The notes beneath the pieces are model-generated. The model saw only the letters and a list, made by a program, of their open reading frames with translations. It made no database searches and was not told the origin of the DNA. A DNA stretch of 64,000 bases from Ulota crispa (taxonomy: Eukaryota; Streptophyta; Bryopsida; Orthotrichales; Orthotrichaceae): positions 5,490,539 through 5,554,538 of the forward strand of contig OY987248.1 of the NCBI GenBank assembly GCA_963920765.1, in the 5' to 3' direction. Shown here one piece after another: positions 967 through 63,714 of the stretch. Each line of letters begins with the position of its first letter. The first letter of the stretch is position 1. The position numbers were made by a program, and so were the translations under genes.

Positions 967-1934
967 TTAACCCCTAAAGGACCAAGAGGTTGTTCAACAA
1001 CCACTTGAGAACTTGGGTAGGGTCATATGGAGTTAATTTTTATTGGATGTCTCAACATTGTTACACAAGGTGCAAATATGTATTTCCCAAGTGGACATCT
1101 AAATTTTTCCCCAATTGGATGCGTGGTTCAAAAGTTATGTTGCCCAAAAGAAATTGGGCAGTTTGGGCTTTTTGGGCAGTTTGAGCATCTTTGGAAAATC
1201 TTATGCTAAAACTCTCATCAACTTTTGAAATTTGGCAAGTATGTAACTAAAAAAACATAGTGTACAATTGTCAAAAAATAAAATAAAATAAGCTCTCACA
1301 TCACATTTTGAAGGGAGTCAAACTTTGATAACTATGTTTGGGTAGTTTTAAGAAAAAAAATTCCTCTAACTTCAAGCCCTATTATCTTTCATTTTATAAA
1401 TCCAAAGCTCTTGAAACTTTTTTTCACATATTCCAAATGTTTGTCTCCAACTCTTTACCTTTCAAATTTCAAATAAAAGACTTCCACATTGCATAAGAAA
1501 TCATGGAAGAATGACTAATGTATTGCCAATTCACTAAACCTCCTTGCATGGGAGGGTGATTTAGAATAAGCTAAACTCTATATTTGCATCTGAAAATTTT
1601 CATGAGTGAACCTAACATCATATACTTGTGAATGGTCCAAAAGCTCAAATTTATGTAGAGTAAAAATTTTACTCTAGGAAGGCTCAAAGACTGTTGACAT
1701 TGTTTTGCAGGAATGAAAAAAGTTTTTTTCTCACTTCAAATGTTATAATCTTACAATCCGCGTAGTCAGATGGGCTGAATTTCTTTGCACACGTTGGTTT
1801 ATTGGTTTTACAAACTTTTGGTATGGTTGAAAGTGAGAATAAAGGTTTTTGTTTTTGATTTTGGGCAATGCACTAAAAGTTGGCAATTTTTAAGATTTTT
1901 TCTCAAAAAACACCCTTTGTCCTTTAGGGGTTAA
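967..1934. mobile_element. TTAA element 1 (piggyBac-like, non-autonomous)
   Basis: The left end reads TTAACCCCTAAAGGACCAAG; the right end, reverse-complemented, starts TTAACCCCTAAAGGACAAAG. The two TTAA copies (967-970 and 1931-1934) are the presumed target duplication. The 968-bp interior has no credible transposase ORF. It holds short repeats of a TTTGGGCAG-type string near 1140-1185. Its ends match the L/R family but its interior is largely its own. Confidence 0.85.
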
Positions 1935-2033
1935 GTATTATTCAACATGAACACTATTTGTCATGATGAACATTAATTTTCACACTAAATGAGAATTAGA
2001 ATGCGTTGAATGATAGGGAAAGCAACACCTTAA

Positions 2034-2173
2034 GACCATCCCCAATGTATCCGTAACACGGCATGCTAAAACCTAGCCTAACATATTAACAGCCATCAAA
2101 TCATAATCTAATGGCTGTTAATATGTCAGGCTAGGTTTTAGCGTGCTGTGTTATAGATACATTGGGGATGCCC
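2034..2173. mobile_element. Harbinger/Tourist-type foldback MITE
   Basis: A 140-bp element that is almost entirely palindromic. It starts GACCATCCCCAATGTATC and ends GATACATTGGGGATGCCC, with arms pairing through CTAAAACCTAGCCT and ATTAACAGCCAT. Direct TAA copies flank it at 2031-2033 and 2174-2176, the target-site preference of PIF/Harbinger elements. It has no coding capacity and could fold into a long hairpin if transcribed. Confidence 0.85.
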
Positions 2174-2690
2174 TAACAGCATCTCTTGCTGCACACTTAA
2201 TTTTCAGGCCCTGGCTCTTTTCAGATGAAAAGTAACTAATTCTAGAGGTATTGCCCTCTATATTTACCTTCCCTCTTCAAATAAGCCATATTTGAAAAGG
2301 GCTTCTAAACCCTCTACAAGTTATATTTTATAGTGATCATAGCTTACTTTATTGCTTTTGAAAGTTCTTTGACTTGTGCTTGGTTGGCACTATACTTAGT
2401 GAGTTGTACTGTTAGAAATACAAGTCATTACTCCCTCTAAAACTAATAGAGAGGAATTGGAGGAACTTGGACATTTAGAGGGTTGCAGGAGATGATCTAA
2501 GTATAGTAACACTAAATTCCATCATTAGTGTACTGGTTCCAGAGTATCTTCAACTTTATTACTGCCAACAAAATCAGTTCCAACCGCCAGTAAGTAGTAA
2601 CTGTTCCTCCAGTGCAATTCCTTTTACCAAATCAATGTACAGTACTGTACATGTGTTGGATATGGAGAAACAGGAAGCTTTCCCTGTAAA

Positions 2691-2785
2691 GCATGTGCCC
2701 CATGTGCTTCCATGTGCCCCCATGTGCCCCATATACCCCCATGTGCCCCATATGCCCCCATGTTCCCATGTGCGCATGTGCATCA
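2691..2785. repeat. CCATGTGCCCC minisatellite
   Basis: About eight imperfect copies of an 11-12 base CCATGTGCCCC-like unit, with variants CCATATACCCC and CCATATGCCCC. Both strands are open in several frames, so apparent His/Met/Gly-rich or Cys/Pro-rich ORFs across it are a by-product of the repeat. Confidence 0.85.
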
Positions 2786-2845
2786 GCCAAGGTCAAGGGA
2801 CATGTAAGTAACCTCAATGACTTCAATGGCTTTGACAATTCGTTC

Positions 2846-3497
2846 TTAACCCCTCACCGCCGATGCTATTTTTTTAGTATCTCAGAGTTTGCTTGAAAGT
2901 GAACAAAATGCCCGCATTTTGATCAATGTTATCAAATTTTTTTGAAGTACAACCTTACAAATTCAAAGTAGATATGTTATAGATCACATAAGAAAAGAAA
3001 TCACAACAATATCATTTATAGATTGAAAGATTATAATGTTTAATCATGAGGGTGTTAAAACTACAAAAATAATTTGAAGCCTTTCAATCCTGTTTTTGCA
3101 TTTTAAACCTAAAATTGAGGGTACCAAAAAAATATAAGTATGTAAAGTATAACATGCATAACCCCAATTAATTTACGGCTTCTCAAAATCTATTCTACAA
3201 ATTTTTTAATTGAATTTTTAATGTAATTTTTCTCCAAGTTCTAGTGTACTTGAGGCTCATGTCCAAGAGCTCTCAACACTAGAAAGTGAAGATTTGCAAT
3301 GGACACCCTTGCACAAAATCTTGAATAGAAAAATCGCTTTAATTCATCTTCAAAATCAAACTCCTAATGCTGAAACTAGACTTTAATAAGAATTGAAAAA
3401 TAATAATAATCACTAAACAAATCTTAAAAAAGGTTGCATATCTTTAAATAAAATTCAGAGGGGCCCAAATCAGGCCCCTTAGGCAGTGAGGGGTTAA
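2846..3497 (+). mobile_element. TTAA element 2 (640-bp family, forward)
   Basis: Starts TTAACCCCTCACCGCC and ends GGCAGTGAGGGGTTAA, 652 bp. The interior carries the family landmark GATTGAAAGATTATAATG in forward orientation (near 3021). The right-hand TTAA (3494-3497) is also the left end of element 3, which is the same family in the opposite orientation. The terminal CCCCTCAC differs from the CCCCTAAA of most other elements in the window. Confidence 0.85.
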
Positions 3498-4144
3498 CCC
3501 CTAAATGCCCAAGTGACCAAAATCAGGTCTTTGCAAAACTTTGAAGATGAATAAAACATTATCAAATCACTATTTTCAGTTTTTTTTTTCAATATAAGTT
3601 TGTTTTGAAGTTCACTTTCAACATTAAAAATATGATTTTGAAAATGAAAGTTGATGATTTTCCTACTCAAGCTTTTATACAAAGGTGTCCACTGAAATCT
3701 TGAGTTTTTTAGTGTTGGAAGATCTTGAAAAAGAGCCTCAAATACACTAGAGCTTGGAGAAAAATCCACATTAGAAACCCATTTAAAAAAATATAGAAGT
3801 AGATTTTTAAAGCCATCTTTTGATTAGAATTAGACTTATAATAACCTTAAACCTCATATTTTTTTGACGACCAACTTTTTAGATTTGACATGTGAAATGA
3901 GGATTAAAAAACTTCAAGTCACTTTTATAGTTTTATCACCCTCATGTCCAAACATTATAATCTTTCAAACTATAAGTGATATTGTTGTATTTTCTTTTTC
4001 CATGTAATCTCTAGCATGTTTATTTTAAATTTGCACGGTTACAATTGAAAAAAACTTGATGAAATTTATGAAAAGGTTAATTGATAGTTCAGTTTCATGA
4101 AAATTTCAATAAGCTCAGAGAGGCCTTGGGCATGTAGGGGTTAA
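3494..4144 (-). mobile_element. TTAA element 3 (640-bp family, reverse)
   Basis: Starts TTAACCCCTAAATGCCC and ends GGGCATGTAGGGGTTAA, 651 bp. The interior is the reverse complement of the element 2 type: CATTATAATCTTTCAAAC near 3951. It abuts element 2 with one common TTAA, giving a back-to-back inverted pair of nearly equal length. The minus-strand reading frame across its left half (3494-3769) shows no known domain and I do not regard it as a gene. Confidence 0.85.
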
Positions 4145-5668
4145 CCTTGATATATTATGACAATAATGTACTCAATCCTTTACTTCAGTGGCAAATGAAT
4201 TGACCATCTAATTTTTGAACCTCATATTGTCATGACACTTCTATTCTCACTCATGTATTTCAATGACAAAATGAAGAGTCCACGTTGTATCTAGAACTCT
4301 TGCTTTCAAGACAATATTGTTGTTGCTCCCTTGTACTTCAATGACAAATAGGGTACCCAACTTATTTCAATTTATCTAAACCTCAAACCTTCTTTTTAAC
4401 ACTTTTTAACACTATTCTCACGTATGCTTCCAAAAAGAGTGTCCACTCTTATTCTTGAAACTAGTTATCATCACCCTTTTTTCCAACTACAAACAAAGAA
4501 ACAAAGAGCAAACTTCCATGCTGATTCTAAATTGTGGAAAATTTATTGAAAAAAACAAGTTAGCATTGCAAATATTTGTGTATTTCTTAGGTTTTCCAAA
4601 TTTGAGGTCATCATGGAAGTTTGACCTAAAACTAAGGGAGGAGCACCCATCCTCGTGAGGGTTTCCATAAGCATGACCTCTGAAATCTTGGAAATCTGTG
4701 GAGATAAATAGATGTAATGACAAGGATGTACCACATGTGAACATGAAATTTTAGTAGTGGTTATGGGTACAATGGCACTTTGCTCTTTAAAAATTCACAA
4801 CTTATTCTCACAATATTCAAATAATAAATTTGAAGATGCAAACTCATTATTTTTCTGTTGCTAATAGGATCCTATTATTTGCTAGATGTTTACTAATAGT
4901 CATCATGTTCAAAACCCTTGAACTCACGCTTATGGATGCTCCTACCTTCTCGAAATTATAGGAGCCCACAGTAATTGCACTGCAATCCAAGTTTTGCGCA
5001 GAGCAAGGAAAAAGTAGTAATCATAAATCCAAAAAGAAAAAGAAAAGAAAGAAAAGAAACGGTAGTATACAAGGCAAAAAAAATGAAATCCCTCTTATCA
5101 GGGCCACACGTGCAAGAAAACAATTTCTAAAATTCCAAATCTGCTAGTTTCAAATGGAACACAAACACAAATGTAAACATTTAAGGAATCCGCTTCTATA
5201 CAAAGATATAAGACCCTCTTTGCACTAGAGGTGAGAAGACATGAAAAATCTCTTACAGCCATCATGGTTTGTTCTTGAAAGGCCGGCTTTTGAAGGTAAC
5301 CATCTTTGGTTGTAGGAAGGTGCTATGTTTAAATTGTTTTTTTTTCCTCTTTGAGTAGCTCCTACAAAAATATTAAATTTTTTTCTTTAAAAAAAATCTA
5401 TGGGAGATTGAGCCAAGCAATCCTTGTAGTTTTGGTTAGGCCTACCTCTTTTTATGGGCATGACGGTGATTTCAAGGGACCCAAAAATTGTGCACTTTCA
5501 TTGCCAAAAAGGACAAAATTGTTGTCTATTTTATTTTCTCTTTTTCTTGTGCTTGGAAAGAAAAATTTCAATATAAAGTGACATTGGTTGGTCTTTTCAA
5601 TTTCTCTAATTTTCATTGACTGTAATTTTGCTCTCCATAACTTCCCGCATGTAGTACAAAGATGCTAC
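4145..5668. other. Intergenic DNA, nothing recognised
   Basis: No repeat with clear ends and no convincing coding region. There is a purine-rich AAAAG/AGAAA run near 5031-5060 and several poly-T tracts. ORFs of 60-85 codons on either strand here have no recognisable motif. Confidence 0.4.
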
Positions 5669-5837
5669 TAAGAGCATCTCCACTAGGGGCTTCCTTGTCC
5701 CCATCCCTATCCAAATCCCCATTGGGATAAAGGAGCAAAGGTAGGGACAGGGATAGGCAAACCCACTTATTCTTCCCTATCAAGAAACTTATTACCTTTA
5801 TAATTACTAAGACGGGTTAGGAAACACAAATGGGAGA

Positions 5838-6105
5838 ACAGATGGAAACACCATATTGGTTAAATTGGGAAAAATGGAGGTACCATTTTGTACTCCAACT
5901 TAAACCCAAAAAGTTACCTTAAACTAGATTCAAAGGTATTAGATTTAGTCTAAGCCACTAAGAATTTTTCCCTCACAAATTCCTCTTCTCAGGTGAGGGC
6001 GCATGTACCAAAAAGAACACTGCGAGTTTGATTTAGGTGATCACCTAAAACCTTCAAAAGTCCCAAAATGTACTCTTTTCCCCAATTTAACAAAAATGGT
6101 GTTTG
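5838..6105. repeat. Foldback-type repeat unit, copy A
   Basis: The left boundary AAACACCATATTGGTTAAAT pairs with the right boundary ATTTAACAAAAATGGTGTTT. The interior includes GGAGGTACCATTTTGTACTCC and an AAACCTTCAAAAGTCCC-like arm. A related copy lies inverted at about 23463-23718, sharing the AAATTGGG ends and the GGTACCATTTTGTACTCCA core. No coding capacity. Confidence 0.6.
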
Positions 6106-6544
6106 GAGGTGAAAGGAGATAATAAATTGCACTTTTTGGAGAAAATTGAGGAAACATTTTACTACATTTGAGTTTCCTATATGACCTCTTGTATAGAGTA
6201 TTGGGGCTCCCTCTCATTTGGATTTTCTAAATATTTGAAGATATAGGCTCTTGGTGGAGAGGGTTCTTCCCTATTGGATGAATTCCAATCTAATACAGAT
6301 TGAGAAGCCCAATGTTTTTTTATTGGCAAAATTTTGCTTAAATCTTACCTCAAAATCCTTGTGGCTACCACTACACTAAGAAATTGGGCTTAAAAAGTAG
6401 ATGAAACTGTTAGATGTCTCCTTAAGTAAACATACAGTTTACCAGCTTTTGGTTCAAAATAGCTTATATTAGTAAATTTGTTGGATGAACGTGTACACAT
6501 CATTCATTCCTTCCAATATTAACCAAATTTTCCTTACTTGCATG

Positions 6545-6663
6545 CAGGGTTTAGATTGCTGGCAAACGAGTGTTGAGTTGTCCACTGAATATTGGAGAAT
6601 TTCCGGAGGGAAGGGAATCCAGTGGACAAATTTTGTCAAAATTCGCTAGCAATTTAAACCCTG
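6545..6663. mobile_element. hAT-type MITE with 8-bp target duplication
   Basis: The 119-bp element starts CAGGGTTTAGATTGCTGGC; its right end, reverse-complemented, starts CAGGGTTTAAATTGCTAGC. It is flanked by CTTGCATG (6537-6544) and CTTGCACG (6664-6671), a 7/8 match fitting the 8-bp duplication of hAT elements. Inner arms also pair (TTGTCCACTG with CAGTGGACAA). It lies about 1.3 kb from a decayed hAT transposase, but the sequence does not prove that the two are related. Confidence 0.85.
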
Positions 6664-6749
6664 CTTGCACGCTTGTAGGGTGCTAGTCGCTCTACCTTGG
6701 CAAAAACATAAAAAAGACACTAGGGAAGCCCCGTGTGGAGATGCTCCAG

Positions 6750-7927
6750 CCTTTAAATTGTAGGTGAATTTTTGCCAGAAACTAACCTCCTCTAGGGGTT
6801 TGCAAATTTAACAAAGAAAAAAATTGGTTGATAACCGCCCTGACTTTGCCTGATTCAAACCTAGCCCGGTTCTCAATCGCCATGATGGCTGCCAAGAATG
6901 GGAGGAGTGGGTGTGACGTGGCCGCCAGAGGGACGTCTGTAGCGCCAGAATAAGATTTGTCATTATTGGGAATTGCCACCTTTGAGGTGACAGCTGGCTA
7001 TGAGGCTACCAAGATTTAGGGTTTAGCGCCTCATCTTCTTCTTCTCAATCCTAGTTGTTGCCTGCACTGCTGTTCCCGTGTACCTGAGGTTGCCACATGT
7101 GTTTTTCCCGCTGCAAATTTTCCCCCAAGCAGTGATGTTCGCGGCTCTCGCCTCTGCTTTGTCACCACGATTCCGCCGTGGCTCCCTGATTGCGCCAATT
7201 CTCATGACGGAGTGCAGTGTTTCCTGAAGATTTTGTGAATGCGTGGACACAACATTCTTACTCCCGCGCTTAGTCCAATGTTTACAAATTCTACTACTGC
7301 ATGGGGCGCAAAGTTTGCACTTTCTTCATGTATTGTTTTATTGTCATGTGAATTGCCGATTGAATTTGCTTACAAGTCATGCTGTAGGATTTGGGTTTCA
7401 TATAGGTGTAGACTTGCAATTTCTCCAAATTCATGCTATTTCTTCTGGTGTTTTCCTCTGAATGTATAAAATAAGAAGTCAGAATTGTGAATTGATTTGG
7501 GTTGCGTCATTGCATGTAAATGAGTAGTGTTTTCTTGTAGGGTTCTCAGGTTTAACTATTGAACGGATTAAGGCTTTGCTACTTTGGGTGAATGGATGTG
7601 CAGTTTAGAATCCAAATTGACGGCTTTAGGGTCGGATTTCATGCAGTTTAATGCATCTTGTAGTGACAGGGTTCAGGGTTTAATTTTGTTGTTCCTAACG
7701 GCAATTGGGTCCAGGCATGTCCAAGTGGCGGATCCCCAGACAATGAGGACGCAAAGCACCTCGGCGACTTGGTGCCTTTGAGACATCGACAACGATCTTC
7801 ACTGCATTCCACATAAATCAACATGGTGCAGAGTTTCCAAACATGTGTTTTTTGGGTCCTTTGATTTCATTGTGTTCTTGTTGTATTGGCGCTTCTATCA
7901 AACTATTGTTCTTTGTGCTTTACTGCA
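6750..7927. other. GC-richer 5' flank of the hAT pseudogene
   Basis: From about 6840 base composition rises relative to the surroundings and stays higher through the transposase relic, so this is probably the element's own leader/promoter or a captured sequence. ORFs of 65-76 codons occur on both strands but show no domain. I could not find a terminal inverted repeat pair that would fix the element's left boundary. Confidence 0.35.
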
Positions 7928-10425
7928 ATGGCAAAAGCTCGTAAGATGCAGTGCACCATGCAAAACAATTTGTATGGGTCTAGGGTTCCAACTGAACGTG
8001 AAGGTGGGCTTGTTGTTTCCGTGTCTGCCGTGGGATCTTCCAATGACCGCGGTAAAGGTAAATTGGTGGAGGATGATCACCAGCGCTACTGGTGAGGGGT
8101 CGGGGTTGGGGTCAAGGTCGCAAGAAGAGTGTATTGTCATCACTGCGGAGGTGGTTGCAAAGACTGCAGTTGCAAGCTCCAGTGCTGCAAACGGCAAGTC
8201 TGCCAGGGTTGCGAGGTCTATGCAGGAAGAGCTGGCAAACAAGAGGAAGAAGGATTACGACAGGAATTGGCAGTTCCAAGATTCCTGGGCAGCAAAGCTG
8301 CCATGGATCAAGAGTGTCTTAGGCGTGGATGGTTTACTCACACAAGTCCAATGCAAGGTCTGTTCTGAAGTGGAAGGGAGGGAAAATTACTCACGCCAAA
8401 GTTGGATTCACTCTAGGAACATGCAGGGCAACGTAAGGCGCTTTGCAACTCAGAGAAGGTGAAGCGTGGCAAGCACTTCTATTTAGGCACAAATCAACAC
8501 GTCAAGAATGAGAGGATTTTTTTTGCAAAGGGGGGGACACTATTTTGCAGAAGGTGGCAATGGGCGTAGCGATGGAGCAGCGCAAGAAGCTTGTGCGGTT
8601 CCGCGTCCTCTTCCAGGTTCTTACCCAAGGATGCTCGATGTGTGATTACAATTGCATGCGGGAGTTGTTGGAACTTTTGGGGACTCCAAATTTACCTCGT
8701 AAACATTGGAGTGAACCGTCGGGTTGAGAACTGGCAGATGTGATGGGCACTGTGGTCTTTTGGCGGTTGAAGGAATCGCTCCAAAAGGCCAACTGCATTT
8801 CAATGATTGCGGATGAGGTCACTTCCATTGATAACCAGCTCTAGTTATCTATGCATGTGTATGTCCCTCACCTCTTTGGAAGGCGAGCGCTTCTTTTGCA
8901 ACTGCAGCGGGTCGTTGGTGGCTCAAACACTGCAAATTTGATGTGGATGATCCAATCCGCCCTAACTACCAACAGAGGCCTAACTGATGAGCAAATAGGC
9001 AGTAAGATGGTGTGCTTTGGTGCTGACGGGGCTAGTGTTTTTCAAGGGTGTCGAGCAGGTGTGACGCAGCAGTTGGTGGTGAAGTACGCACCATATGCTA
9101 TTGGAGTGCATTGCATGGCGCACTGGACAAACTTGGCGGTTGAAGGTTTGTCGAACTTACCCCTAGTTCACAAACTCAAAGGTCTGTGCACCCAACTTCA
9201 TTCATACTTCTCTACCTCGTCAAAGAAGCACCTTGAGTTTACAAAGCTGGCAGAAATCGTGGAGACAGAGGGATTGAAAATCTTGAAGAGAGTCTCCACT
9301 AGGTGGATATTGCTCCTGGAGCCGCTGAAGAGGATTTTGATGAACTATGAAACCCTAATTGTGAAGTTTAGCAATGACTCTAATCACAAAAGTGCTGCCA
9401 AGCGTAACCTATCACTACTCTGCAATATTAGCACTTTGTTGGCTCTACCATGCATTTATCCTTTACTTGAATCAGTTCAATCCTTGATCAAGTTTGCCCA
9501 ATCAAGAAATGCGTATATCTTTGATTATATTGCAGCCATAAAAAATTTCCAAAACTACACACTATCTATATTGATACTTCTACACCCTACCAACCTACTC
9601 ACTTCCAAATGTTTTTGGACATAGTGGCTGACCACTCTCACACTGGGACCCAAGATTGGGTCACCGACCTCAACAATGGAGACGAGAGCTTATCCTTTTG
9701 CATCAATGGGCACTCTTACCTTGCCCACAGTATTTGCCTTATCTCCGGAGTTCAAAAACTGGTCAGCCGTGGGGACTTTGAAGCGGCTATCACATCCGTC
9801 AAAGGTCAGTGCACCTCTGCCGCGGTGTTGCTGATCAAGCAACTCACAAGGAAGTTTCCTCACTCAGAAATGATGGAGGCCCTTGTAGTCTTTTCGCAGT
9901 TCTAGCTCAATGATCAGTGTGATCAATTGTTTCCCCTTCACATGCAAGAGTTGAAGAGCTGGTTCTGGGAGCCAAAGTTTGCAAGGTTTGGCCAGCCTGA
10001 CCAGCCTAAGGTTACTCAGTTCACAAGCCGTTTGGATTCTCGGCAATTGGACTTGCAAACTGCATTTTTCAAAGTGACAATGCGAGCTCAGTCTCTTAGA
10101 GCCATGGAGCCGCCCTTCACCGCAAATCCCATTACCAAGTTTTGGCAAAAGCTCGGTTCCAGTGCCCTCTTGCTCTACAAACTCTCAGAATTTTTGAAGT
10201 TAGCAGAGTTTGCTAATGACAGCTATTTTAGGCAATGTTGAGGATGAAAGGACGTTCTCCACTTTGTCTTTCTGCAAGAGTAAGCTTCAGAACCGGCTAA
10301 AAGACCACCTTGAGACAGTGGTCAACCTCTATTCTCAGCTGTTTTACAACCTTGAGAGCTTTCCTTATGCGGAGGCCTTTGACACTTGGCGGGAGGATTG
10401 TGGAAGAGTGGGGATAGACCACTGA
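7928..10425 (+). pseudogene. Decayed hAT-superfamily transposase
   Basis: Coding remnants of one hAT transposase in shifting frames. The N-terminal part (about 8220-8390) reads KKDYDRNWQFQDSWAAKLPW followed by a VQCKVCSE zinc-binding-like motif. About 8545-8727 holds RKKLVRFRVLFQVLTQG and MCDYNCMRELLELL. The ADEVTSID block near 8810 probably contains the first catalytic Asp. 8851-9600 is the best kept part, with VCFGADGASVFQG (second acidic site region) and GVHCMAHWTNLAVEGL. 10230-10425 holds the hAT C-terminal dimerisation signature VEDERTFSTLSFCKSKLQNR. In-frame stops lie at 8414-8416, 8725-8727, 8842-8844 and 9903-9905. Frameshifts fall near 8095, 8390, 8535 (a G run), 9600 and 10215. The protein would have cut and joined hAT termini; this copy cannot. 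It most resembles the ZNF862-like hAT lineage, from memory of the motifs only. The start at 7928 (MAKARKM) is a guess. Confidence 0.85.
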
Positions 10426-10740
10426 AGGTTCTATCTTTTGCACCGTAACAAGCATGGTTTCCTGATTTCTACTTATGCAATGTGAACTGACTGGGGTGGG
10501 GGGGTGGGATTGCATGCTGCGGAGGGCAGACTCTTCGGAGTGGGGTTCAACTCCTCCATGCAATTGTTGCATGCCTTCCTTTGAATTGTTTTGCAAATAT
10601 GTGTTGTTTCTCTTGTAAGTTCCTTATGAAGTGTCCAAATGGAGGACTTATATTTCATGGAATGCCAATAAAATTGTGCATGTTTGGCTATTGCTGCTTT
10701 GTTTAAGTTTTCTTGGTATGTTCAGTGCTTTTGGTATGTT
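10426..10740. other. 3' flank of the hAT pseudogene
   Basis: No ORF of note. A G-rich stretch with a GGGGTGGG run sits at about 10494-10508, and AATAAAATTG near 10668 could be an old polyadenylation signal of the transposase. The sequence then passes into GGTATGTT-type degenerate repeats. Confidence 0.35.
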
Positions 10741-11037
10741 TTAAGGTAGTTCAGTATGTTTGCTGTGCTATTGGTATGTTTTTAAGTAGTCTTGGTATTG
10801 GTATGTTTGTAAGTAGTCCTCGTATTTGTAGGTTTTTAAGTAGTCTTGGTATGGGTACTTTAATAGGTTTTTAAATAGTCTTGGTATTGTTAGGTTTTAA
10901 GTAGTCTTGGTACTATTAGGTTTTAAGTAGTCTTGGTATTGTTAGGTTTTAAGTAGTCTTGGTACTGTTAGGTTTTAAGTAGTCTTGGTATTGGAAGGTT
11001 TTAAGTAGTCTTGGTATTGTTAGGTTTTTAAATAGTC
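10741..11037. repeat. 26-bp minisatellite, about ten copies
   Basis: Tandem units of about 26-27 bp with the core TTTTAAGTAGTCTTGGTATT followed by GTTAGG. The right half (about 10885-11037) is the most regular; the left half has longer, more diverged units. The upstream GGTATGTT strings (10710-10745) look like further decayed copies. Confidence 0.9.
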
Positions 11038-11320
11038 TTTGTCTATTGGATTATGAAAGTGGAAGCCACAAACCCTGCTTGACCAAGATCAAAGTCGCCA
11101 AATACCATTCACAAGAATCTTCCCTCTCACCATAACAAGTACCATGAAAAAATTGCCCTCGCCATAACAACGCACCCTCTAAAATTTTCAAAGTGCCAGA
11201 AAATGAGTGAGACTTTGGGCCGGGAGCCAAAATTTCAACAAAAAAGAAAAAAGTTCTTGCCTTTACAGCTACCCCTCTTATGTTAAGGAGCGACTCGCCC
11301 TACTCCCGGAAAATCCCAAT

Positions 11321-12229
11321 TTAACCCTTTAAAGACCACACACATTTTCACAAAATGCATTAGAAACCAGGGTAGTAAACTTGGATGTGCGTTTGAATCA
11401 ATTATGGACCCAATTTTAGTAATCCAATTGTACAAATGAGAAGTAGACCTTGTTTACTATAAAGCATCAAAATCTCAATTAGATTTGCTGTGGGAGATGA
11501 AATATTATAATGATTGAGTGAGTTGTAGGCAGGAATTCTCTAGTTTTCATGCTTGTGTGGTTTTGTATTTTACTGCTTCATACAAGCTTTGCTTGAGAAG
11601 AGCCTTATATTTCTAAAAAGTTGGGTTTCCCACCTTTCCAATAAGACTAGTTTCACACAAAATGGATAAAAATTGCAATCACAAGGTGTAGCTAAGTGGA
11701 CAAAAAGGTTCAAAAATCCCACTTTCTTTGCTACCCAAAATATTTTTACAAGAAACTTGATAAATGCTATGGAAAATCCAATTGGTGAAAACAATAAAGA
11801 ATTGGCCTTAAATGTAGGACAATTTTTTTAAAGATGAAATGATAGCATCATTTTAATAAATTCTCAAATACTACAATTATACTACTACAATATAGAAAAC
11901 CAATACAAGCATATTTCTTGATCAATCTGAATTTCTTTAGGACAACATAATTGAAATTTGGCATTCTTCTTGGATGTTTGATGTATTGTGTTGTTGCTCT
12001 GATCCATCATTGACCAAATATGAATACGTATTTTGAGACCATGCCATATAAATACCATTATTTATCAACTCACATACCCAATTGCATTGTTATTTTTTTG
12101 ATTAGATGCAAAATTCTTGTGATCAAAAACGTTCTTCAAGACTAATTTCCAAATTGTTGAGCGATTTCACTCTATACTCCAAAAACCACTCTACTGAACC
12201 AAAATATGGGTCGGTGGTCTCTAGGTTAA
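11321..12229 (+). mobile_element. TTAA element 4 (905-bp family)
   Basis: Starts TTAACCCTTTAAAGACCAC; the right end, reverse-complemented, starts TTAACCTAGAGACCACCG. Length 909 bp. An inverted, more decayed copy of the same family is at 17544-18447; both contain GGCATTCTTCTTGGATGTTT (here forward, near 11959). Minus-strand ORF 11570-11794 has no recognisable domain. Confidence 0.8.
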
Positions 12230-12567: not shown

Positions 12568-12570
12568 TAA

Positions 12571-48020: not shown

Positions 48021-48220
48021 NNNNNNNNNNNNNNNNNNNNNNNNNNNNNNNNNNNNNNNNNNNNNNNNNNNNNNNNNNNNNNNNNNNNNNNNNNNNNNNN
48101 NNNNNNNNNNNNNNNNNNNNNNNNNNNNNNNNNNNNNNNNNNNNNNNNNNNNNNNNNNNNNNNNNNNNNNNNNNNNNNNNNNNNNNNNNNNNNNNNNNNN
48201 NNNNNNNNNNNNNNNNNNNN
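48021..48220. other. Assembly gap, 200 N
   Basis: Exactly 200 unknown bases, probably a placeholder of arbitrary length. Reading frames that cross it are meaningless. Confidence 0.99.
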
Positions 48221-48467: not shown

Positions 48468-48503
<36 letters not shown>

Positions 48504-50457: not shown

Positions 50458-50459
50458 TA

Positions 50460-50879: not shown

Positions 50880-50906
50880 TATTTTTTGTAATGGATGTGG
50901 TGAATG

Positions 50907-52806: not shown

Positions 52807-52877
52807 TTAACCCCTAAAGCACTAAGCTCAAATTTTCACCAAAATTGCTCCAAAACTGCAATTTCTAGTACAAGTAC

Positions 52878-52928
52878 CAAATTATAAAATAAAAATAAAA
52901 AATAAAAAATAAAAAATAAAAAATAAAA
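52878..52928. repeat. (ATAAAAA)n microsatellite
   Basis: About seven units with variation in the A-run length, inside element 25. Confidence 0.85.
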
Positions 52929-53316
52929 ACTTTTTTGACAAATGTAGCTATAAGATCACACTAGTATCAAAAGATGCAGAAAAAAATTCAAGAGTTTTCA
53001 CGGTATGGATTGTTAGAGATTTGAGTTTGAATTGACAAAATGCCATTTTTTGTTTCTGCAAAAATTTGGGCAGCTACACTTCACAAGGTCATATTTGTAT
53101 CAAAAATTTCCAAAATGATTATAGTTTTTTGGATTTGCTCTTTAAAGCAAGTTGGGTATGCACTTGAAAAAATTCAAATCACTTGGAATTGTAAAACACA
53201 TGAAAAAAAGTAAAAAGTAAAAAGTAATGGAGAATGATTCAAACCACTAAATTGTTAAGAACTTAAATATGGAAATGAAAAATTCTAGTCTCAATGGTTG
53301 TAATAAACAATCTATG

Positions 53317-53318
53317 TG

Positions 53319-53351
<33 letters not shown>

Positions 53352-53355
53352 ATAT
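53317..53355. repeat. (TA)n microsatellite
   Basis: TATGTATA-type repeats passing into pure TA, about 39 bp, inside element 25. Confidence 0.85.
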
Positions 53356-53772
53356 CAAAAATGTTGAAAATGGAGTAAATTAATGGACTTCAAAGTTTAG
53401 TTTAGGGTAAAGAATCCATAATTGCACGCAAACAAAATCTCCTCATAATTTTCATCTCATTAATCAAAATGGAATGATTCAAAGCTTCCCATGTATGCAT
53501 AAATTTAAAGAACCAATTTCAAAAAACACAATTCAAAAATTGTAATTTTTGAAAAAGATTTCTGGCAGCCTGCCAAGCAAAGAATACTTCATGTCATGCA
53601 ATAACTTTTGAACCATGAAGTCAAAAGTTATGAAAATTGTTGGGCCTCAAAGCTGCTCCTTGGACACATTGTGTGTGAAAATTTCAATGAAAAAAATGAA
53701 AACCCCATTGGAAGTGAGGTGCCCAAAATTGCTATGTTGCCCAAAAAGAGTGTTGAGGGCTTTAGGTGTTAA

Positions 53773-54352: not shown

Positions 54353-56147
54353 TTATCTCCTAAATGTCAAAGAATTATTTTCTTGTTTTGAGAAGGCATC
54401 TTTGAAGTTTTTGAACTATTGTTGTAAGATCCTTATTAAACATTATAAAGAAATTAGCATCAAAGGATCTGGACTTCAAGGCTTCTTGATGGTGCTGCCA
54501 AACAAGATTCCAAAAAAGCCACTTGGATGTTAAGATATTAGTGATTAAATGTAAATGAGTATGGGATTTAATGTTTTTTTTGTAACTGCCCCAAACTTGT
54601 TATGCAAAAATGGTAACTTTTGCATACAAAATTGGAAAACAACTACTTATGTTGATTTAGGATTTATTGTTGTTACATTAAAACTAATGACCCCCCTTCC
54701 AAATTTATGATCACAATTTCACAAATGAGCTTGCAATGCAACTGTCAAAGAGTTATCATCTGATTCAAAGAATTTAACTAATTCCCATTATCAATCAAAA
54801 TTTGTTATAAAAAAGAGAATCCAACATAGGATAATTTTTTTATTTGTATAACAAAAACATTTTAACCCCTAAAGGACCAACTGTCCGTTTGGCGAACAAA
54901 TGGGATTTTGGGCAGGTACCTATGGCCAAACTATTTTGCATGATTTTTTGAAACTTTTATTGAAGATAGGGAATTCAAAGATCTGCATGGGCATCTAATT
55001 TTTATTCCATTTGATGCCAAGGAGCAAAAGTTATGCCCAAATAAGCACAAATTTGGGGACTCCAGGTAGCAAAATTTTTTTTTATAAAAACTTGATTTTT
55101 TTTCTCATAGAGTATATCTTTGTCTACATCCAAAGCTTTGATTCATTCCATTTGGACTAGTTATGAGAAAGTTATGGACAATCTTGTTTTTCAGGCAATT
55201 CAAGCATCTTCTTGAAAAAATAACTTATAAACTTCATTTTTGAATGCAATTTTAGTATTTTTTCAAAACAAACTATTGGAGAGGATGGAATTTGCTTTCT
55301 AGAACAATCTCAACTTTGGGATCATTGCGTTTCAATTCCATTGCACAGTTATTAGCAATTTAAGTTTTTGTTCAATCTCATACCTTCTTCTGTCTAATGT
55401 TTTTTTAAAGTATAAAAACTAATTTTTTTTTGTAATTTTTTTTCCCAATATTACCAACTCAACTTCTCACCATGCAAAAATTGAATTTCAAACTCTATGG
55501 AGCAAAAGTTTTAAGTTAAAGAAGTTCAAAATTAAATAATCTAGTCAAGCAAGGTGCAAAAAAATTTGTTTTTTACTTTTTAAATGCAAATATCTTCCAA
55601 TCTGTGTGGTCAAAGTTCTTGAGTTTTGTATGACACATTCTTATAGTAGTCTAGTACAAGATCCTATGGTTAGATATGCAAAAAGACCAATTTTCAAACT
55701 TTTTTACTCTTTGCCATAGAAGTGGCAGTTTTGAGTGTCTTTTGATAAAATAAAGGCCATGGTCCTTTAGGGGTTAAGTGAAATTGGTACAAAAACACAT
55801 CTACAATTTATTGGATGATGAATTTTTCATAGTAGGGCCCTCATTGCCTAAGGGGAGATCTTGACTTTATTCTCAACTTGCTCCATGTTTTCCCAACATG
55901 GCAACTTATCATAAGCCCTTTAGTGATACTATTCAAAACACTTCTTAGTGCGCCAAGGGCATGCTTGCAATGTAACTTCCACCAACAATGATTGGAATGT
56001 TATACGAAGAATGTTCAAATTAAACCTTGAAGCTGAATTCAAACCACAAATTCTCAAAAATAAATAAAACATTCAAACCTTTGTCTTAGTAAGGTTTCAA
56101 AGTTTCCTAAACACCAAAATTTAGTGCCTTTGACATTTCGTGGTTAA
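54353..56147 (+). mobile_element. TTAA element 26 (host of element 27)
   Basis: The decayed left end TTATCTCCTAAATGTCAAAG and the right end CCTTTGACATTTCGTGGTTAA match elements 20 and 33 in this family. The span is 1795 bp; without the nested element it is 883 bp. It preserves the unoccupied sites for element 21 and for the CACTA MITE, while element 20 preserves its unoccupied site for element 27. Confidence 0.78.
54862..55777 (-). mobile_element. TTAA element 27 (R to L), nested in element 26
   Basis: R-type left end TTAACCCCTAAAGGACCAAC with the decayed palindrome TGTCCGTTTGGCGAACA. The L-type right end is GGCCATGGTCCTTTAGGGGT then TAA. 916 bp. Direct homologue of element 15. Its flanks AACAAAAACATT and GTGAAATTGG join to match AACAAAAAAAATCCAATTGAAATT in element 20 (near 37770). 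Confidence 0.87.
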
Positions 56148-56913: not shown

Positions 56914-57853
56914 TTAACCCCTAAAGGCCCAAGCAGTTTTCTCCAGTGAAAGTCACTGTTAACTACCACTTTGGGGGGAATGAGTAGAAAAGTAGGAAAT
57001 AGAGTTTGTTTTGCAAATCCAACCATAGGATCTTGCCTTAGACTAGAAGAGGTACTTGTGGGAAAAAATCAGGTCATTCTAGATGGAGAGGAGGGAGATA
57101 TTTACATCTAAAGTGAATTTTTTTTTTTTTTTTTGTATTGTCCAAAAAATTTCAGCAGCCTTTGTCCACACATCCATGAAAAAAATTACTCTACACAAAG
57201 TTGAGGTTTATTTCTTCCATGTAGCATACCAAGTTAGGTATGTGTGGGAGAATTTTCAAATCAATTGGAATTATACAACACATGGAGGAAATAGTAAGTA
57301 AAAAGAAGTAGAGAATGAGTCAAATCACTAAATTGTTAGGAATTTAATTATTAAAATAAAAAAATGTTAATCCCAACGGGTATAATGTTGTGATAAACAA
57401 TCTGCTTCTTTAGGTTTAGTTTTTTTCCCAAATTATAAAAAATTGTGGAAAATAAAGGACTTAAAAGTTTATTTTAGAGTAGAGAATCCATAACTGCCCA
57501 CAAACTAAAACATCTCCTAACTTTCATCTCATCAATTGAAGTCAAATGATACAAAACTTCCCACATATGAAAAAATCTAAAGAACCAATTTCAGATTTCT
57601 ATTTTTAGAAATACAAATTTTTAAGAAGTTTTTGGGCTGCCCGGATTGCCCTCCCTCCCCCGGGTAGCAAAAATTCTTGCATAACTTCTTCATCAAATGT
57701 CAGAATGACAAAAAAAATTAGATTCCCGTGTAGGTCTTGGAATTCCCCACCTTCAATAAAAGTTTTAAAAATCACAAAAACTAAATGAGCTATAGGTACA
57801 TGCCCGAAATCTCAATTGTCCCCCGGGGGGACAGCTGGGCCTTTAGGGGTTAA
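56914..57853 (+). mobile_element. TTAA element 28 (L to R)
   Basis: L-type left end TTAACCCCTAAAGGCCCAAG; the R-type right end carries the perfect palindrome GTCCCCCGGGGGGAC before GGGCCTTTAGGGGTTAA. 940 bp. A T run of about 17 bases lies near 57119-57135. The core module CATCTCATCAATTGAAGTCA (near 57525) is present. Confidence 0.87.
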
Positions 57854-58000
57854 CATCTGCACAATGTTTAGAAAGAAACCAACAGCAGGTTGTTACAAAT
57901 TGGGGAGGAAAGGCAAAAGATAGAATTAGGAAATGATGTTTGATTAGCTGGCGTGTCACTCATTGTGGGCAAATTAGTAAATTACCTTTGAAGCTAAATG

Positions 58001-58930
58001 TTAACCCCTAAAGGACCATTGTCCCTTCGGGGGACAAATGGGATTTTGAGCATGTACCTATGGCTAAACTACTTTGCGTGATTTTCTAAAACTTTTATTG
58101 AAGGTGAGGAATTCAAAGATTTGTGTGGGAATGTAACTTTTTCTTCATTCTAAAATTTATTGAAAAAGTTATGTATGAAAATCTAGAAAATGTTGCTCCC
58201 AAGGCAGCCAAAAACTTTTTTTTAAATTTCATTTTCTTCAAATAAAAATCTGAAATAGGTTCTTTAGACTTATATAGACATGGGGAACCTTGAATCATTC
58301 AATTTTGATAGATGAGATGAAAGTTATGAGGAGTTTTTGTTTGCGGGTAGTTCTAGATTCTCTACTCTGAAATTAACTTTGAAGTCCTTTATTTTACTCA
58401 ATTTTCATTATTTTGGAAAAAAAACAAAACCAAAGGAAGTAGATTATTTATCACAACACTGTAACTATTGGGATTTGCATTCTTCATTTTTGTAATTAAA
58501 TTCTTAACAATTTAGTGTTATGACTCATTCTCTACTTCTTTTTACTTACTAATTTTTCCCATGTGATGTATAGTTCCAATTGATTTGAAAATTCTCCCAC
58601 ACATACCTAACTTGGTCTTCTACATGGGAAAAATAAACCTCAATTTTGTGTAGAGTAATTTTTTTGCTCTAAGAGTGATCAAAACCTTTTGAAATTTCTA
58701 GGCAACAGCAAAAAATGATAATAATCCGCAATTTAGATTTAAATATCTCACTCATTTTTATGTAGTTTGAGCTGATTTTTTTACCATGTGTACTTCTTGT
58801 AGTCTATTGTAAGATCTTACGGTTGAAGTGTTGTAAAAAACTTTTTTTCTTACCATTGTACTTGCTTCCCCAAAAGTGGCAGTTTTTTGTGTTTTTCACA
58901 AAAAAAATGGCTTGGTCCTTTAGGAGTTAA
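58001..58930 (-). mobile_element. TTAA element 29 (R to L)
   Basis: The R-type left end TTAACCCCTAAAGGACCATT is followed by TGTCCCTTCGGGGGACA. The right end CTTGGTCCTTTAGGAGTTAA is L-type and its TTAA is shared with element 30. 930 bp. Confidence 0.87.
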
Positions 58931-59173
58931 TCCTTGAGCGCCCGAGTACCTCAAAATGGGGCGCTCAGTTTTGAAAATTGTCCAAGTTTGACTCTTATCT
59001 TCTTCTTAATGGTAAAGTCAAAGGACTTGTACTTTTTCATGTACCTTTAGGCATGTGTCTACTACCACTCAAAAAAATCAAACTATTTAACTCTACTTGA
59101 ATAATACTTTTATTAAACTAAGTACACAAGGATACGGATTTGAGTGAATATGGCCTGGGCACTCAGGGGTTAA
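58927..59173. mobile_element. TTAA element 30 (247-bp MITE, copy 2)
   Basis: Starts TTAATCCTTGAGCGCCCGAG and ends GGGCACTCAGGGGTTAA. Same length as element 19 and collinear with it (TGGTAAAGTCAAAGGACTTG, then GTGTCTACTACCACT). It uses the right-hand TTAA of element 29 as its own left end. Confidence 0.9.
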
Positions 59174-59622: not shown

Positions 59623-60339
59623 AAGGCCCAAGGGCGCTTTTGGGGGACAAATGGAATTTTAAGCATGTACCTATGGCTAAACTATTTTGCGTGATTTTTT
59701 GAAACTTTTATTGAAGGTGAGGAATTCAAAGATCTACGTGGGAATGTGACTTTTTCTTCATTCCGACATTTATTGAAGACGTTAAAAATGAATAACTTAA
59801 AAATAAGGGATTCCATGCAGCCCAAAGACTTTTTTAAAAATAGCGTTTTTTTCAAATAAAAATTTGAAATAGGTTCTTTAGACTTATATAGACGTGGGGA
59901 GCTTTGAATCATTCAATTTTGATAAATGAGATGAAAGTCATGAGAAGTTTTAGTTTGCAGGTAGGTGTGATTTCGAGAGAAACCACACCTACCCACGAAC
60001 TAAAACTTCTCATAACTTTCATCTCATCTATCAAAATTGAATGATTCAAAGCTCCCCACGTCTATATAAGTCTAAAGAACCTATTTCAGATTTTTATTTG
60101 AAAAAAATGCTGTTTTTTAAAAAGTTTTTGGGCTGCATGGAATCCCCTATTTTTAAGTTATTCATTTTTGACTTCTTCAATAAATGTCGGAATGAAGAAA
60201 AAGTTACATTCCCACATAGATCTTTGAATTTCTCACCTTCAATAAAAGTTTCAGAAAATCACACAAAAGTAGCTTATTCAAAGATACATGCCCAAAATTC
60301 CATTTGTCCCCGAAGGGACAATGGGCCTTTAGGAGTTAA
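59623..60339. mobile_element. TTAA element 31: foldback with R ends on both sides
   Basis: The left end TTCACCCCTAAAGGCCCAAG and right end GGGCCTTTAGGAGTTAA are both R-type. On each side the sequence runs inward through AACTTTTATTGAAGGTGAGG-like DNA and the core module to a central hairpin, GTAGGTGTG (59961-59969) / CACACCTAC (59984-59992). 717 bp. It has no L-type sequence, so it is an inverted dimer of the R half. The two ORFs sharing MIQSSPRLYKSKEPISDFYL-like starts are mirror readings of the arms. Confidence 0.88.
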
Positions 60340-60881
60340 TGTCCTATAATTTTACTGCATGTTGCAAATGCGGGGTTTGGACGGCAATGTTGTATCAGAG
60401 CTAATTCATATGGGGACCTGAGGTCATCAAAACTCAGGGCAGTTGGATCAAACCTCGGGGCAGTTGGATGGAAAGCTTGGGCAGTTGGATGGAAGCTTGG
60501 GCAGTTGGATGGAAAGCTTGGGCAGTTGGATGGAAGCTTGGGCACTTGGATGGAAACCTTGGACAATTGAATGGAAAGCTGGGGAAATTGATGCTTGGTG
60601 ATCCATCCTTATTCAAGTCTAATGCAAATGGTTGCTTCAGTGCAAAAAAGCATAAACCCACAAAGATGTAACAATCATAATAACTATGTATAGCACCCAT
60701 CAATAAATTAAAACTCTTTGTTTGTAATTATAATTAGAGATGTTAGGAAAGAAGTTATTAACATAAATTGGAGTTATTGTTTGTCAAATAAAAGTTATCA
60801 TTATTCAAAATTGACAAGTATTTGACATTTTACACCAAGAAGGTAAAGAGTTGGCTACCCAAGCACAAGGTTGTCCCAATA
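60340..60881. other. Intergenic DNA containing a GCAGTTGGATGG minisatellite
   Basis: The minisatellite is listed separately. The remainder (60605-60881) has nothing recognised. Confidence 0.5.
60436..60600. repeat. 20/21-bp minisatellite, about eight copies
   Basis: Units GGCAGTTGGATGGAAAGCTT and the one-base-shorter GGCAGTTGGATGGAAGCTT alternate in the centre of the array, with more diverged units at both edges. The alternation suggests expansion of a two-unit block. Confidence 0.9.
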
Positions 60882-61607
60882 TTAACCCCTAAAGTACCTA
60901 GCCCCTTTTTCAAGGACAAATGGGATTTTGGGCACGTACCTATGGCTAAACTACTTTGCGTGATTTTTTGAAACTTTTATGGGAGATAGGGAATTCAAAG
61001 ATCTGTGTGGGCATCTAATTTTTACCTCATTCCGACATTTATTGAGGAAGTTAAAAATGAATTTATGAGAATTTTAGTTTGGCAGGCAGCCCAAAAACTT
61101 CTTTAAAAATTGCAATTTTTTAAAATAAAAATTTGAGGTTTGTTTTTTAGACTTATGTATATGTGGGAAGCTTTGAATCATTCAATTCTAATTGATGAGA
61201 TGAAAGTTATGAGAAGTTTTAGTTTGCGTGTAGGCATTGTTTTGAGATTCTCCACACCTACCCGCAAACTAAAACTTCTCATAACTTGCATCTCATCAAT
61301 TAGAATTGAATGATTCAAATCTTCCCACATATACATAAGTCTAAAAAACAAACCTCAAATTTTTATTTTTTAAAAATGCAATTTTTAAAGAAGTTTTTGG
61401 GTTGCCTGCCGAACTAAAATTCTCATAAATTCATTTTTAACTTCCTCAATAAATGTCGGAATGAGGTAAAAATTAGATGCCCTCACAGATTTTTGAATTC
61501 CCCATCTTCCATAAACGTTTTAAAAATTACACAAAGTAGTTTAGCCATAAGTACATGCCCAAAATCCCGAAAGTCCCCCAAAGGGACTTTTGTCCTTTAG
61601 AAGTTAA
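60882..61607. mobile_element. TTAA element 32: foldback with R ends on both sides
   Basis: Left end TTAACCCCTAAAGTACCTAG; right end TTTGTCCTTTAGAAGTTAA. Both arms run GGCATGTAC-type R sequence, then CAATAAATGTCGGAATGAGG or its complement, then the core module to a centre near 61245 (GTAGGC / CCTACC). 726 bp. Similar in plan to element 31 but with its own changes, so either independently formed or long separated. Confidence 0.87.
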
Positions 61608-62807
61608 TAATTAGTTTACATTAAATTAACTAGTTGAAAAACTAAATTTATGAAGACAAAAAAGGAATCATCCTATCTAACATGGCATTTATGTCTATCA
61701 TGCCAAATCTGGGAGGTGCCATGTGTGTTTTGAAAATAAGTTGCCCAAGGAATTTGGCTGCTTTTGGAAGTTTGCTGGTTTAGGCTTGCAGTATATAATC
61801 CAAGAAAAATCTAAAATCAAAATTCTCCTTGACAAATTTGACTCACTTGTGCTTCATAGCATTTTTGAGTTGCTCCTTCAACATCTTTACATTAACACGA
61901 CTCTTATTACTAGTTGGAATTCCTTTGAACACAATCCTGAGCTCACAATAACATAAACAAAGCAACGGCTTTTCCAAAACTTCATGTCAAATTAGTAGAC
62001 CTTTATGTTTATTCAGAGCAAAAAAGAAGCCAATTGTAAATAAAATGGATGCATCCCTTTAGCAGACATTTACGTTGCTTTCATGAAACGGCACAATTTA
62101 TTTATTTTCTTCAAACATAATAGGCAATTCGCTTTGACTAATCATACATTTGTTTCTTTTAAAAAAATAATTCTGTACACCAAAGGTACAATGAAGTACT
62201 ATGAAAAAGCATTCACCTCAACTGAATGTATTTCCCAAGAGTGTTTGATAAGGGAAAGGAGAATGTAGGTTTGGAGCTATTGAGGTAAACCAGTTTTTGG
62301 CTTGTAAAGAAGTTTGACACAAAGTCTTTGTTCTTTCAAGTTTTTCACCATTTCCTACAATCGCAACACAAACTCATTTCCAATATTGTTCAAAAATCAT
62401 CAGGCATTTAGTTTTTTGAAAAATGACGTTGTTTTACACATGTAAAAGTTGCAACATCTACATGGACAATCAATCAGCTGTGCTAGGAGTGGTTGTTTCC
62501 TTGAAGCAATGGCTTGCTTTTCAAAAAAGTACCTATGCGAACTTCCTCAAGTAGCTTCTTTCCCTTTGTAACCTTTGCAGGTTTAGGTAAAAGAGAACGT
62601 CCTAAAACCAGTCAATTATAGCGATTTGATTAGAAGATTGAGGGAAGCACATTGGCGGCTTGAAGAGCCAAATTGGAGTGCTATTACCCATTTTACAAAA
62701 TACTAGAGCCCTCTTTTCCAAACATGCATGTTTTAGCTCCCTCTGGATTGCTACAATGACCTTCTAGATCGATAGAGTTGAATGCAAATTTGTGATCCAC
62801 GTGGCTA
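61608..62807. other. Intergenic DNA, nothing recognised
   Basis: No bounded repeat. Short ORFs (61 and 77 codons) lack motifs. Confidence 0.4.
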
Positions 62808-63714
62808 TTAACCCCTAAATGCGCAAGGCACCCAATTTGGGTGTCCAAAAAACTTCAAGAAATTTTGAAGCTCTGTTGAAGGTACGGATTTTATCATTTT
62901 CAAGTTTTTTTTTTTGGAAAAGTTGCACGCTCAAGTTAGCTCCAGTGTTCAGATTCAACTTCCTCTATATCTTATTCCAATTGTTTTTGGTGGAAGGTTA
63001 ACTACAAGCATACATTTTGTGACATGAATAGTGTTGTGAATAGTATCACAGAGCCTATGAGAAGTTGCCACATTGAAAAGGCGGGCATCAAGTTGAGCAA
63101 AAGGTGAAGATTTCCCTTGGGCACTCCCTTGGGCAATAAGGGCCTTTTTACTGAAATTTTGACATTTAACCAAATCTAAAAGTGCTTTTGGACTAATTTC
63201 ACTAGGAATATCTTTGTTATAAAAATTATAATCCTTTCATTGTTGAAATTTCTTTCATTCATAATGATTTTTGGTCAATAATTGGAGCTGAAAATTTCTT
63301 TGTATTAGACAGCTGCGTTTTGACAATTGCGTTGCAGGCTCATTTGTGAAATCGTGATCATGGATTTGGAAGGGGGGCCATTGATTTTGAAGTAACAACA
63401 ATAAACACTAAAGCAATGAAGTGGTTGTTTTCCAATTTTGCATCTAGAAGTTGCCAATTTGTATTAGAAGTTTTGGGCAGCTCCAAAAAAAGCATAAAAT
63501 TCTATTCTCATCATCATTCAATTGCAAATACCTTAAAATCCGCACAGCCATTTTGGATTCTTTTTGGATAGCGCCATGTAGAAGTTTTGAAGTTCAAGAT
63601 TCAACGGTTACGATTTTATTTTAATGTTTAATAATGATCTTACAAGGACAAATCAAAAACTTCAAAATTGCCTTCCGAAAACAAGAAAAACACCCTTGGG
63701 CATTTAGGGGTTAA
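62808..63714 (-). mobile_element. TTAA element 33 (uninterrupted member of the element 20/26 family)
   Basis: Starts TTAACCCCTAAATGCGCAAG and ends GGGCATTTAGGGGTTAA, 907 bp, in the opposite orientation to elements 20 and 26. It contains GGCTCATTTGTGAAATCGTG (near 63340), the reverse complement of their shared landmark. With both ends intact and no insert, it is the best reference for this family. Confidence 0.87.

Follow-up and report, generated by a model that had tools for sequence, protein, structure and literature searches.

Evidence for a large population of piggyBac-type miniature elements in the genome of the moss Ulota crispa

The piggyBac transposon is a major tool of genome engineering, and its natural history has been told mostly from animals. 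Here I describe a 64,000-nucleotide stretch of chromosome 7 of the moss Ulota crispa (Orthotrichales; contig C7:5490539-5554538; hereafter the window), populated by short TTAA-bounded elements that very probably belong to this superfamily, together with transposase-bearing relatives elsewhere in the genome. IFP2 from Trichoplusia ni and its animal relatives target TTAA, possess short terminal repeats starting with CCC, and encode a DDE_Tnp_1_7 transposase with a cysteine-rich C-terminus (PMC10813416; papers are cited by PMC number, for individual passages of their text), and the same features are seen in the moss. The moss transposase-bearing elements are 5.0–8.5 kb in length; the first piggyBac measures 2,472 bp (PMC10803768), and lengths of 1.23 to 9.51 kb are given for animal piggyBac elements (PMC10813416). 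The moss system differs from that of animals in its land-plant host, and in an extra conserved segment at 16 of 20 transposase loci, a comparison for which the animal side was covered by protein, PDB and Pfam searches.

Short, gene-less piggyBac-related miniature inverted-repeat transposable elements (MITEs), similar to those of the moss, have been reported in corals (PMC2872659) and in the ciliate Blepharisma (PMC9942856); the moss elements differ from these in their host, and in the 31,318 exact ends found in 275 Mb. The presence of piggyBac in plants is not new, since piggyBac-like elements are stated to occur there (PMC8086355), a cross-kingdom survey reports PiggyBac in all its groups (PMC4438587), and the C-Fern annotation includes 1,230 PiggyBac copies, corresponding to 122 kb and 0.00% of the assembly (PMC6890710). 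In the passages cited, such plant annotations consist of counts or names only, whereas the present data include the boundaries of elements, their partners and empty sites. The table of a land-plant transposable element (TE) review includes six superfamilies with terminal inverted repeats (TIRs), piggyBac not being among them (PMC9033089), and the genome-report section on Ulota crispa contains no TE analysis (PMC11803377). A search of the open-access literature, on the titles and abstract beginnings of the matches listed, found no description of piggyBac in a moss; a Niphotrichum paper was discarded as such a report, as its two "piggybac" words proved to be "piggybacking". A first-pass annotation of the window, made from the letters alone, had considered piggyBac rare or poorly described in land plants. 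This has to be narrowed: surveys do list plant piggyBac, and it is the scale, the partners and the extra segment that are undescribed in the literature searched. The well-known plant MITEs, Tourist (PIF-Harbinger) and Stowaway (Tc1/mariner), are similar to the moss elements in size range, gene-less bodies and high copy number, but possess TTA/TAA and TA target duplications respectively, and depend on other transposases.

Within the window, the end TTAACCCCT is found 18 times and the end AGGGGTTAA 19 times, compared to 0.44 and 0.48 expected from a first-order Markov model, while replacing TTAA with TATA, ATAT or AATT beside CCCCT leaves 0–1 occurrence per side. Ends were then paired automatically, requiring a TTAA, a CCCCT with no more than one mismatch, TIRs that agree at 9 or more of 13 bases, and a span of up to 3.5 kb. 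This identified 20 elements, encompassing 17,375 bp; in 50 Markov shuffles of the window, 49 had no pair at all, and one had a single pair. Nine left and ten right ends were left over by this procedure. Four additional units were recognized by homology or by a decayed end, and take up three of the leftover ends. The resulting 24 units span 20,155 bp, or 31% of the window, and 16 ends are still unpaired. The elements are therefore real over the range proposed initially (967 to 63714), but the 33 units and roughly 28 kb that the first-pass annotation had counted could not be reproduced, the provable units being fewer; fragments and decayed copies could explain part of the shortfall. It had also treated them as one population, and here the data point elsewhere, as the window contains several element families with related ends. 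At two places, adjoining elements have one TTAA in common (3494-3497 and 58927-58930), as expected if a TTAA element inserts into the terminal TTAA of another. Such ends are comparatively dense in the window, with 20 exact matches to TTAACCCYTNANNGNCC, compared to 7.3 expected from the genome mean per 64 kb.

The genome sequence searched consists of 274.8 Mb in 157 contigs (the published cbUloCris4.1 assembly has 275.2 Mb in 408 scaffolds). The sequence CCCCTAAAGGACCA occurs 8,876 times, with none for the control, and is directly preceded by TTAA in 7,555 cases (85%). The wider end pattern TTAACCCYTNANNGNCC has 31,318 exact matches, against 9 in the reversed control. With two ends per element, this would correspond to ∼15,600 elements of ∼0.9 kb, or ∼14 Mb and ∼5% of the genome, a figure estimated from the end counts rather than measured as coverage. 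I used the 916-bp element at 54862-55777 as a query, which returned 6,495 first-look candidates; among the 40 scored, 39 are non-self copies, 87–91% identical and nearly all full length. In eight further full copies of this family, 15 of the 16 sides are TTAA and one is TTGA, and their 20-base outer flanks are mutually unlike. Two hallmarks of piggyBac are thereby found in the moss, namely the TTAA target (at the ends, at the sampled copy sides, and at the empty sites of two insertions, described below), and TIRs starting with CCC (in the 20 paired window elements and in the genome-wide end matches).

Searching the genome with PF13843 (DDE_Tnp_1_7) gave 120 matches, with a best E-value of 1.3e-73, which group to at least 116 places on eleven contigs (C1-C11); this number is a lower bound, because only 116 of the 528 candidates were scored. 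The same search found no match in 14 control genomes. None of the places scored is located in the window, and when the 2,240 six-frame segments of the window were scanned with a profile built from 13 piggyBac transposases, the best E-value was only 0.27. The first-pass annotation had correctly anticipated this, proposing that the window is of plant origin, lacks a matching transposase, and is populated by elements whose movers are encoded elsewhere in the genome, where at least 116 PF13843 places do exist outside the window.

Ten of the 120 PF13843 rows are free of stops, some of these spanning only part of the domain. The open frame of one locus, L016, matches the PDB sequences of piggyBac (6x67, 4.1e-20) and piggyBat (9c0f, 5.8e-17), and has 16 database relatives with identities of 29–69%. 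In an alignment of 13 proteins (six from Ulota, seven from databases), with the catalytic triad placed at what I take to be the equivalent piggyBac positions, the first two positions (in DE and DN) are invariant, and the third lies within the consensus GVDxxDQ, L016 possessing an N there; the DDD triad of piggyBac is present in this alignment. A cysteine-rich block, as found at the piggyBac C-terminus, is located ∼1.3 kb past the domain start in many loci, among those listed. The five other aligned Ulota transposases are 30–61% identical to that of locus L020, which indicates that several deep transposase lineages coexist. Separately, some transposase matches with identical or near-identical scores form opposite-strand pairs ∼15–109 kb apart (C7:18203169/18223004, C2:36765124/36779670 and C10:676128/785346), corresponding either to large inverted duplications or to an assembly effect.

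Twenty transposase loci were fetched, and 23 of the window units were compared with these. Two families of TTAA-bounded, transposase-bearing elements, of 5.0–5.3 kb, have copies on different chromosomes: L009 and L025 (on C3 and C10) resemble each other, with 90.5% identity, across 5,027 bp running from TTAACCCCTCATCGC to ...AAGGGTTAA, and the pair L022 and L028 (on C1 and C2) does so from TTAA to TTAA, over 5,308 and 5,230 bp respectively, with 89–93% identity. The element L012:1867-7612 (5,746 bp) has TTAACCCCTAAATGCC at both ends and a transposase inside, and matches the window element 62808-63714 over 554 bp at one end (84%) and 115 bp at the other (76%). Finally, in L023 and its extension L041, the ends TTAACCCCTAAAGGATTGAG and TTAACCCCTAAAGGACCGTTG enclose a stretch of 8,530 bp (2661-11190) that includes a PF13843 transposase. 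The termini of this stretch match those of window element 24523-25469 (nucleotides 1-518 at 72%, and 761-947 at 76%) and of 58001-58930 (584-930 at 71%, and 1-177 at 80%). Two window families, including the commonest one, have both ends in common with transposase-bearing elements, and for these two families PF13843 is found inside elements with the same ends, as is the case for piggyBac. Several other observations were made on these loci. The L012 element also includes, 5′ of its transposase, a 430-residue Gln/Glu-rich open frame (L012:5902-7191, minus strand), for which no Pfam match was identified up to an E-value of 1; the L023-L041 element also holds a nested palindrome; and in L011, the outer 5′ stretch and the last 58 bp resemble different MITEs.

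I next consider the empty sites. Among 93 candidate pairs, eight insertions have alignments that span their joined flanks, and six of these were read in letters. In two of these six (L022 and L026), the empty copy possesses a single TTAA. The flanks of the transposase-bearing element L022:2801-8108 align contiguously to the window element 34327-34875, with one TTAA and 84.6% identity over 136 nt. Similarly, the 915-bp insertion L026:8575-9489 has its empty site in L022, with 96% identity and one TTAA. For the window element 54862-55777, all 38 scored non-self places span the junction of the joined flanks uninterrupted (40 rows scored, from 606 candidates), with 71–84% identity. The first-pass annotation had set a comparison with empty sites as its own test, and these uninterrupted sites, with a single TTAA in L022 and L026, favor it, with the limit that the remaining ones read other letters.

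Based on the TTAA ends, the ends in common with transposase-bearing elements, and the uninterrupted empty sites, I conclude, with a probability of about 95%, that the window elements are non-autonomous piggyBac MITEs (∼0.25–1.8 kb), presumably moved in trans by the piggyBac transposases of longer relatives. The piggyBac identity proposed in the first-pass annotation is thus supported by PF13843 partners with matching ends, by TTAA boundaries and by empty sites. The elements fall into several families, with ends composed of TTAA and a short inverted repeat of the form CCCYTNANNGNCC. Longer relatives elsewhere in the genome (∼5.0–8.5 kb) encode a DDE_Tnp_1_7 transposase, with its catalytic aspartates and C-terminal cysteine-rich block. 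In the proposed mechanism, this protein would bind the common ends in trans, excise the elements, and insert them into TTAA. Insertion would leave one TTAA on each side, and seamless excision would restore a single TTAA. The short elements may have arisen by internal deletion.

A number of observations weigh against this conclusion. No transposition event was observed, and most transposase rows hold stops, for which introns or decay are possible causes. The ends of the L023 element are only 66–81% identical to those of the main window family, and no partner for the other window families, for example that of 14662-15715, was found in the sampled loci. Several of the 20 loci have no clean enclosing end pair; L015, L017 and L018 have no clean TTAA pair within 10 kb, and the best TTAA pairs around the L016 and L020 transposases had to be dropped, as they belong to adjacent full-length MITEs. 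For the empty sites, the relatives of L010, L014, L018 and window element 54862-55777 do not possess TTAA at the insertion point, and four further relatives of the latter read TCAA or CCAA, suggesting that the host copies differed there, or that the relatives have changed since. Joined flanks of L027 matched their own locus, and those of 62808-63714 matched only themselves.

Whether the system still works is a separate question, and there is close to an even chance that these are piggyBac relics, for which all mobility ended long ago and no working mover is left; this is a matter of age, and is compatible with the elements being piggyBac MITEs. The 916-bp family copies are 9–13% different from the window copy, the uninterrupted flank relatives of 54862-55777 are only 71–84% identical, and stops are present in most transposase rows. 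Stops do not however prove decay, since they may lie in introns, and the ten stop-free rows, including those that cover part of the domain only, point in the other direction. So does the fold-back element with 97% complementary arms (26907-27654), although gene conversion could also give such arm identity.

The TTAA target is not unique to piggyBac, as Kolobok and Sola3 also target this sequence, and the window elements could in principle be MITEs of such a superfamily, similar to piggyBac only at their ends. The plant TE review mentioned above does name Sola1 in Physcomitrella (PMC9033089). I consider this very improbable, because the TTAA-bounded elements of two families enclose PF13843 transposases, and because two window families, including the commonest, are linked end to end with PF13843-bearing elements, the other families being without partner so far. 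The end-matching elements encode PF13843, as the first-pass annotation had expected of an autonomous partner; the transposases of other superfamilies, such as Kolobok and Sola, were not searched for. Just as improbable is a Tc1/mariner (Stowaway-like) origin, in which TTAACCCC...GGGGTTAA is read as TA followed by ACCCC...GGGGT with an incidental outer T and A, since the full TTAA at 85% of the 8,876 CCCCTAAAGGACCA sites and at 15 of 16 sampled sides goes beyond incidental bases, a TA duplication with free outer bases is not what is found, and the transposase is that of piggyBac.

The extra segment mentioned above consists of ∼84 conserved residues, encoded on the same strand as the catalytic domain and 5′ of it, with the majority residues W-R-Y-L-F-Y-R-Q-x-A-x-L-L-G-W. 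A profile was built from four loci, iterated once, and run on the 20 fetched loci; it identified the segment in 16 of these (L009, L010, L013-L018, L020-L022 and L024-L028), several copies being fragments. It did not detect it in L011, L012, L019 and L023, nor in the window. First-round matches were weak for L010, L022 and L026 (E-values of 0.002–0.08), and that of L019 (0.017) was lost in the second round. One copy of the segment, searched across the genome, gave 89 matches. A scored transposase is located no more than 15 kb away from 38 of these; in all 38 the segment is upstream and on the same strand, and in 36 it is within 4.5 kb. For the other 51, there is no transposase among the 116 scored places, possibly because of unscored candidates, or of decay.

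Among 5.8 billion proteins, a single homologue was identified (P0017, 230 amino acids; from 61 candidates of similar length that share exact words), and it has its initial methionine in common with the L014 frame. The segment has only weak matches in Pfam (E-values of 0.024 or worse) and one weak match to PDB sequences (E-value of 0.27). Its structural model, of modest confidence (predicted local distance difference test, pLDDT, of 71.3, and predicted template modeling score, pTM, of 0.62, from 15 sequences), gave nothing below an E-value of 1.8 in Foldseek. Aside from this one homologue, these searches provided no precedent for the segment as a structural feature. Further conserved blocks are present between the segment and the catalytic domain, which favors a larger transposase gene with introns, whose N-terminal exons would correspond to the segment, and this is the probable interpretation; that it is a separate companion gene is less likely, albeit plausible. 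Its position suggests that it may act in DNA binding or assembly.

The individual window elements are as follows (TIR matches are given out of 13 bases). The main family includes 21727-22737 (1011 bp, 12/13), 24523-25469 (947 bp, 13/13), 32169-33961 (1793 bp, 12/13, with internal inverted repeats forming inverted arms), 54862-55777 (916 bp, 13/13, the best-studied copy, with non-self genome copies and uninterrupted flank relatives), 56914-57853 (940 bp, 13/13, with a full-length copy in L017) and 58001-58930 (930 bp, 12/13), both ends of 24523-25469 and 58001-58930 matching the L023-L041 element. Locus L009 matches 84% of the length of 2846-3497 (652 bp, CCCCTCA end type, 11/13) at 78% identity, and contains full-length copies of its neighbor 3494-4144 (651 bp, 12/13, the TTAA at 3494-3497 being common to both), of 13031-13665 (635 bp, 11/13; 85% identity) and of 16836-17474 (639 bp, 9/13). 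L009:330-1055 also matches, in both directions, the fold-back (palindromic) element 60882-61607 (726 bp), which is recognized by its inverted arms, and for which the right end is decayed. The element 11321-12229 (∼909 bp, CCCTTTA end type, right end decayed) has full-length copies in L014, L016, L018 and L026 (82–83%), and 17546-18447 is a decayed copy of this type, identified by homology to L016, in which the TTAA is gone at both ends.

Two elements of 247 bp, 34902-35148 (11/13) and 58927-59173 (its TTAA at 58927-58930 common to its neighbor), have full-length copies in L012, at 88% for the latter. The element 62808-63714 (907 bp, 12/13) belongs to the CCCCTAAATGCC family, and both its ends are common to the transposase-bearing L012 element. 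A full-length copy of 967-1934 (968 bp, end type CCCCTAAAGGACC, 12/13) is found at L020:7349-8315 (85%), while 14662-15715 (1054 bp, end type CCCCTGAGCGCCC, 13/13) matches none of the transposase loci compared over 60 bp or more. The element 26907-27654 (748 bp), found by automatic pairing and arm comparison, has 274-nt inverted arms, 97% complementary, and 34327-34875 (549 bp, 12/13) holds the empty site of the L022 insertion, the L022 copy being split by that insertion. The remaining elements are 28422-29348 (927 bp, weakly paired, 9/13), 42799-43778 (980 bp, left end imperfect, 10/13), 47041-47959 (919 bp, 10/13) and 52807-53772 (966 bp, right end TTAACACC, 11/13).

Other features of the window include two near-perfect palindromes, with 93–95% arms, at 59685-60268 and 60965-61526; the second is inside the fold-back element 60882-61607, and is a potential source of hairpin RNA. 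An assembly gap, consisting of 200 N, is located at 48021-48220. Five open reading frames of the window had no match in Pfam, and no Rfam match was identified. The plus-strand open frames 7845-8462 and 8851-9624 have no Pfam match at 0.001, and resemble what I presume to be a relic of a hAT or zinc-finger (TTF/MYM-like) transposase.

Collectively, these results indicate that a transposon family known mainly from animals is widespread in a land plant, and the more than 31,000 exact piggyBac-type ends imply that this superfamily can be a sizeable part of a plant genome. They also suggest that automated plant TE annotation may misfile such MITEs. The extra segment is a testable addition to the architecture of piggyBac transposases, and tools for plants could be developed from native transposases together with their own ends. 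A more speculative possibility, which I consider somewhat unlikely in its entirety, is that mosses carry old and diverse native piggyBac lineages, whose transposase is fused to, or works alongside, a new helical N-terminal domain not known outside of these, and whose MITEs make up ∼5% of the genome. If true, this would amount to a piggyBac system native to plants and equipped with a new module for DNA binding or assembly, and one or more of the moss piggyBac families may still be mobile.

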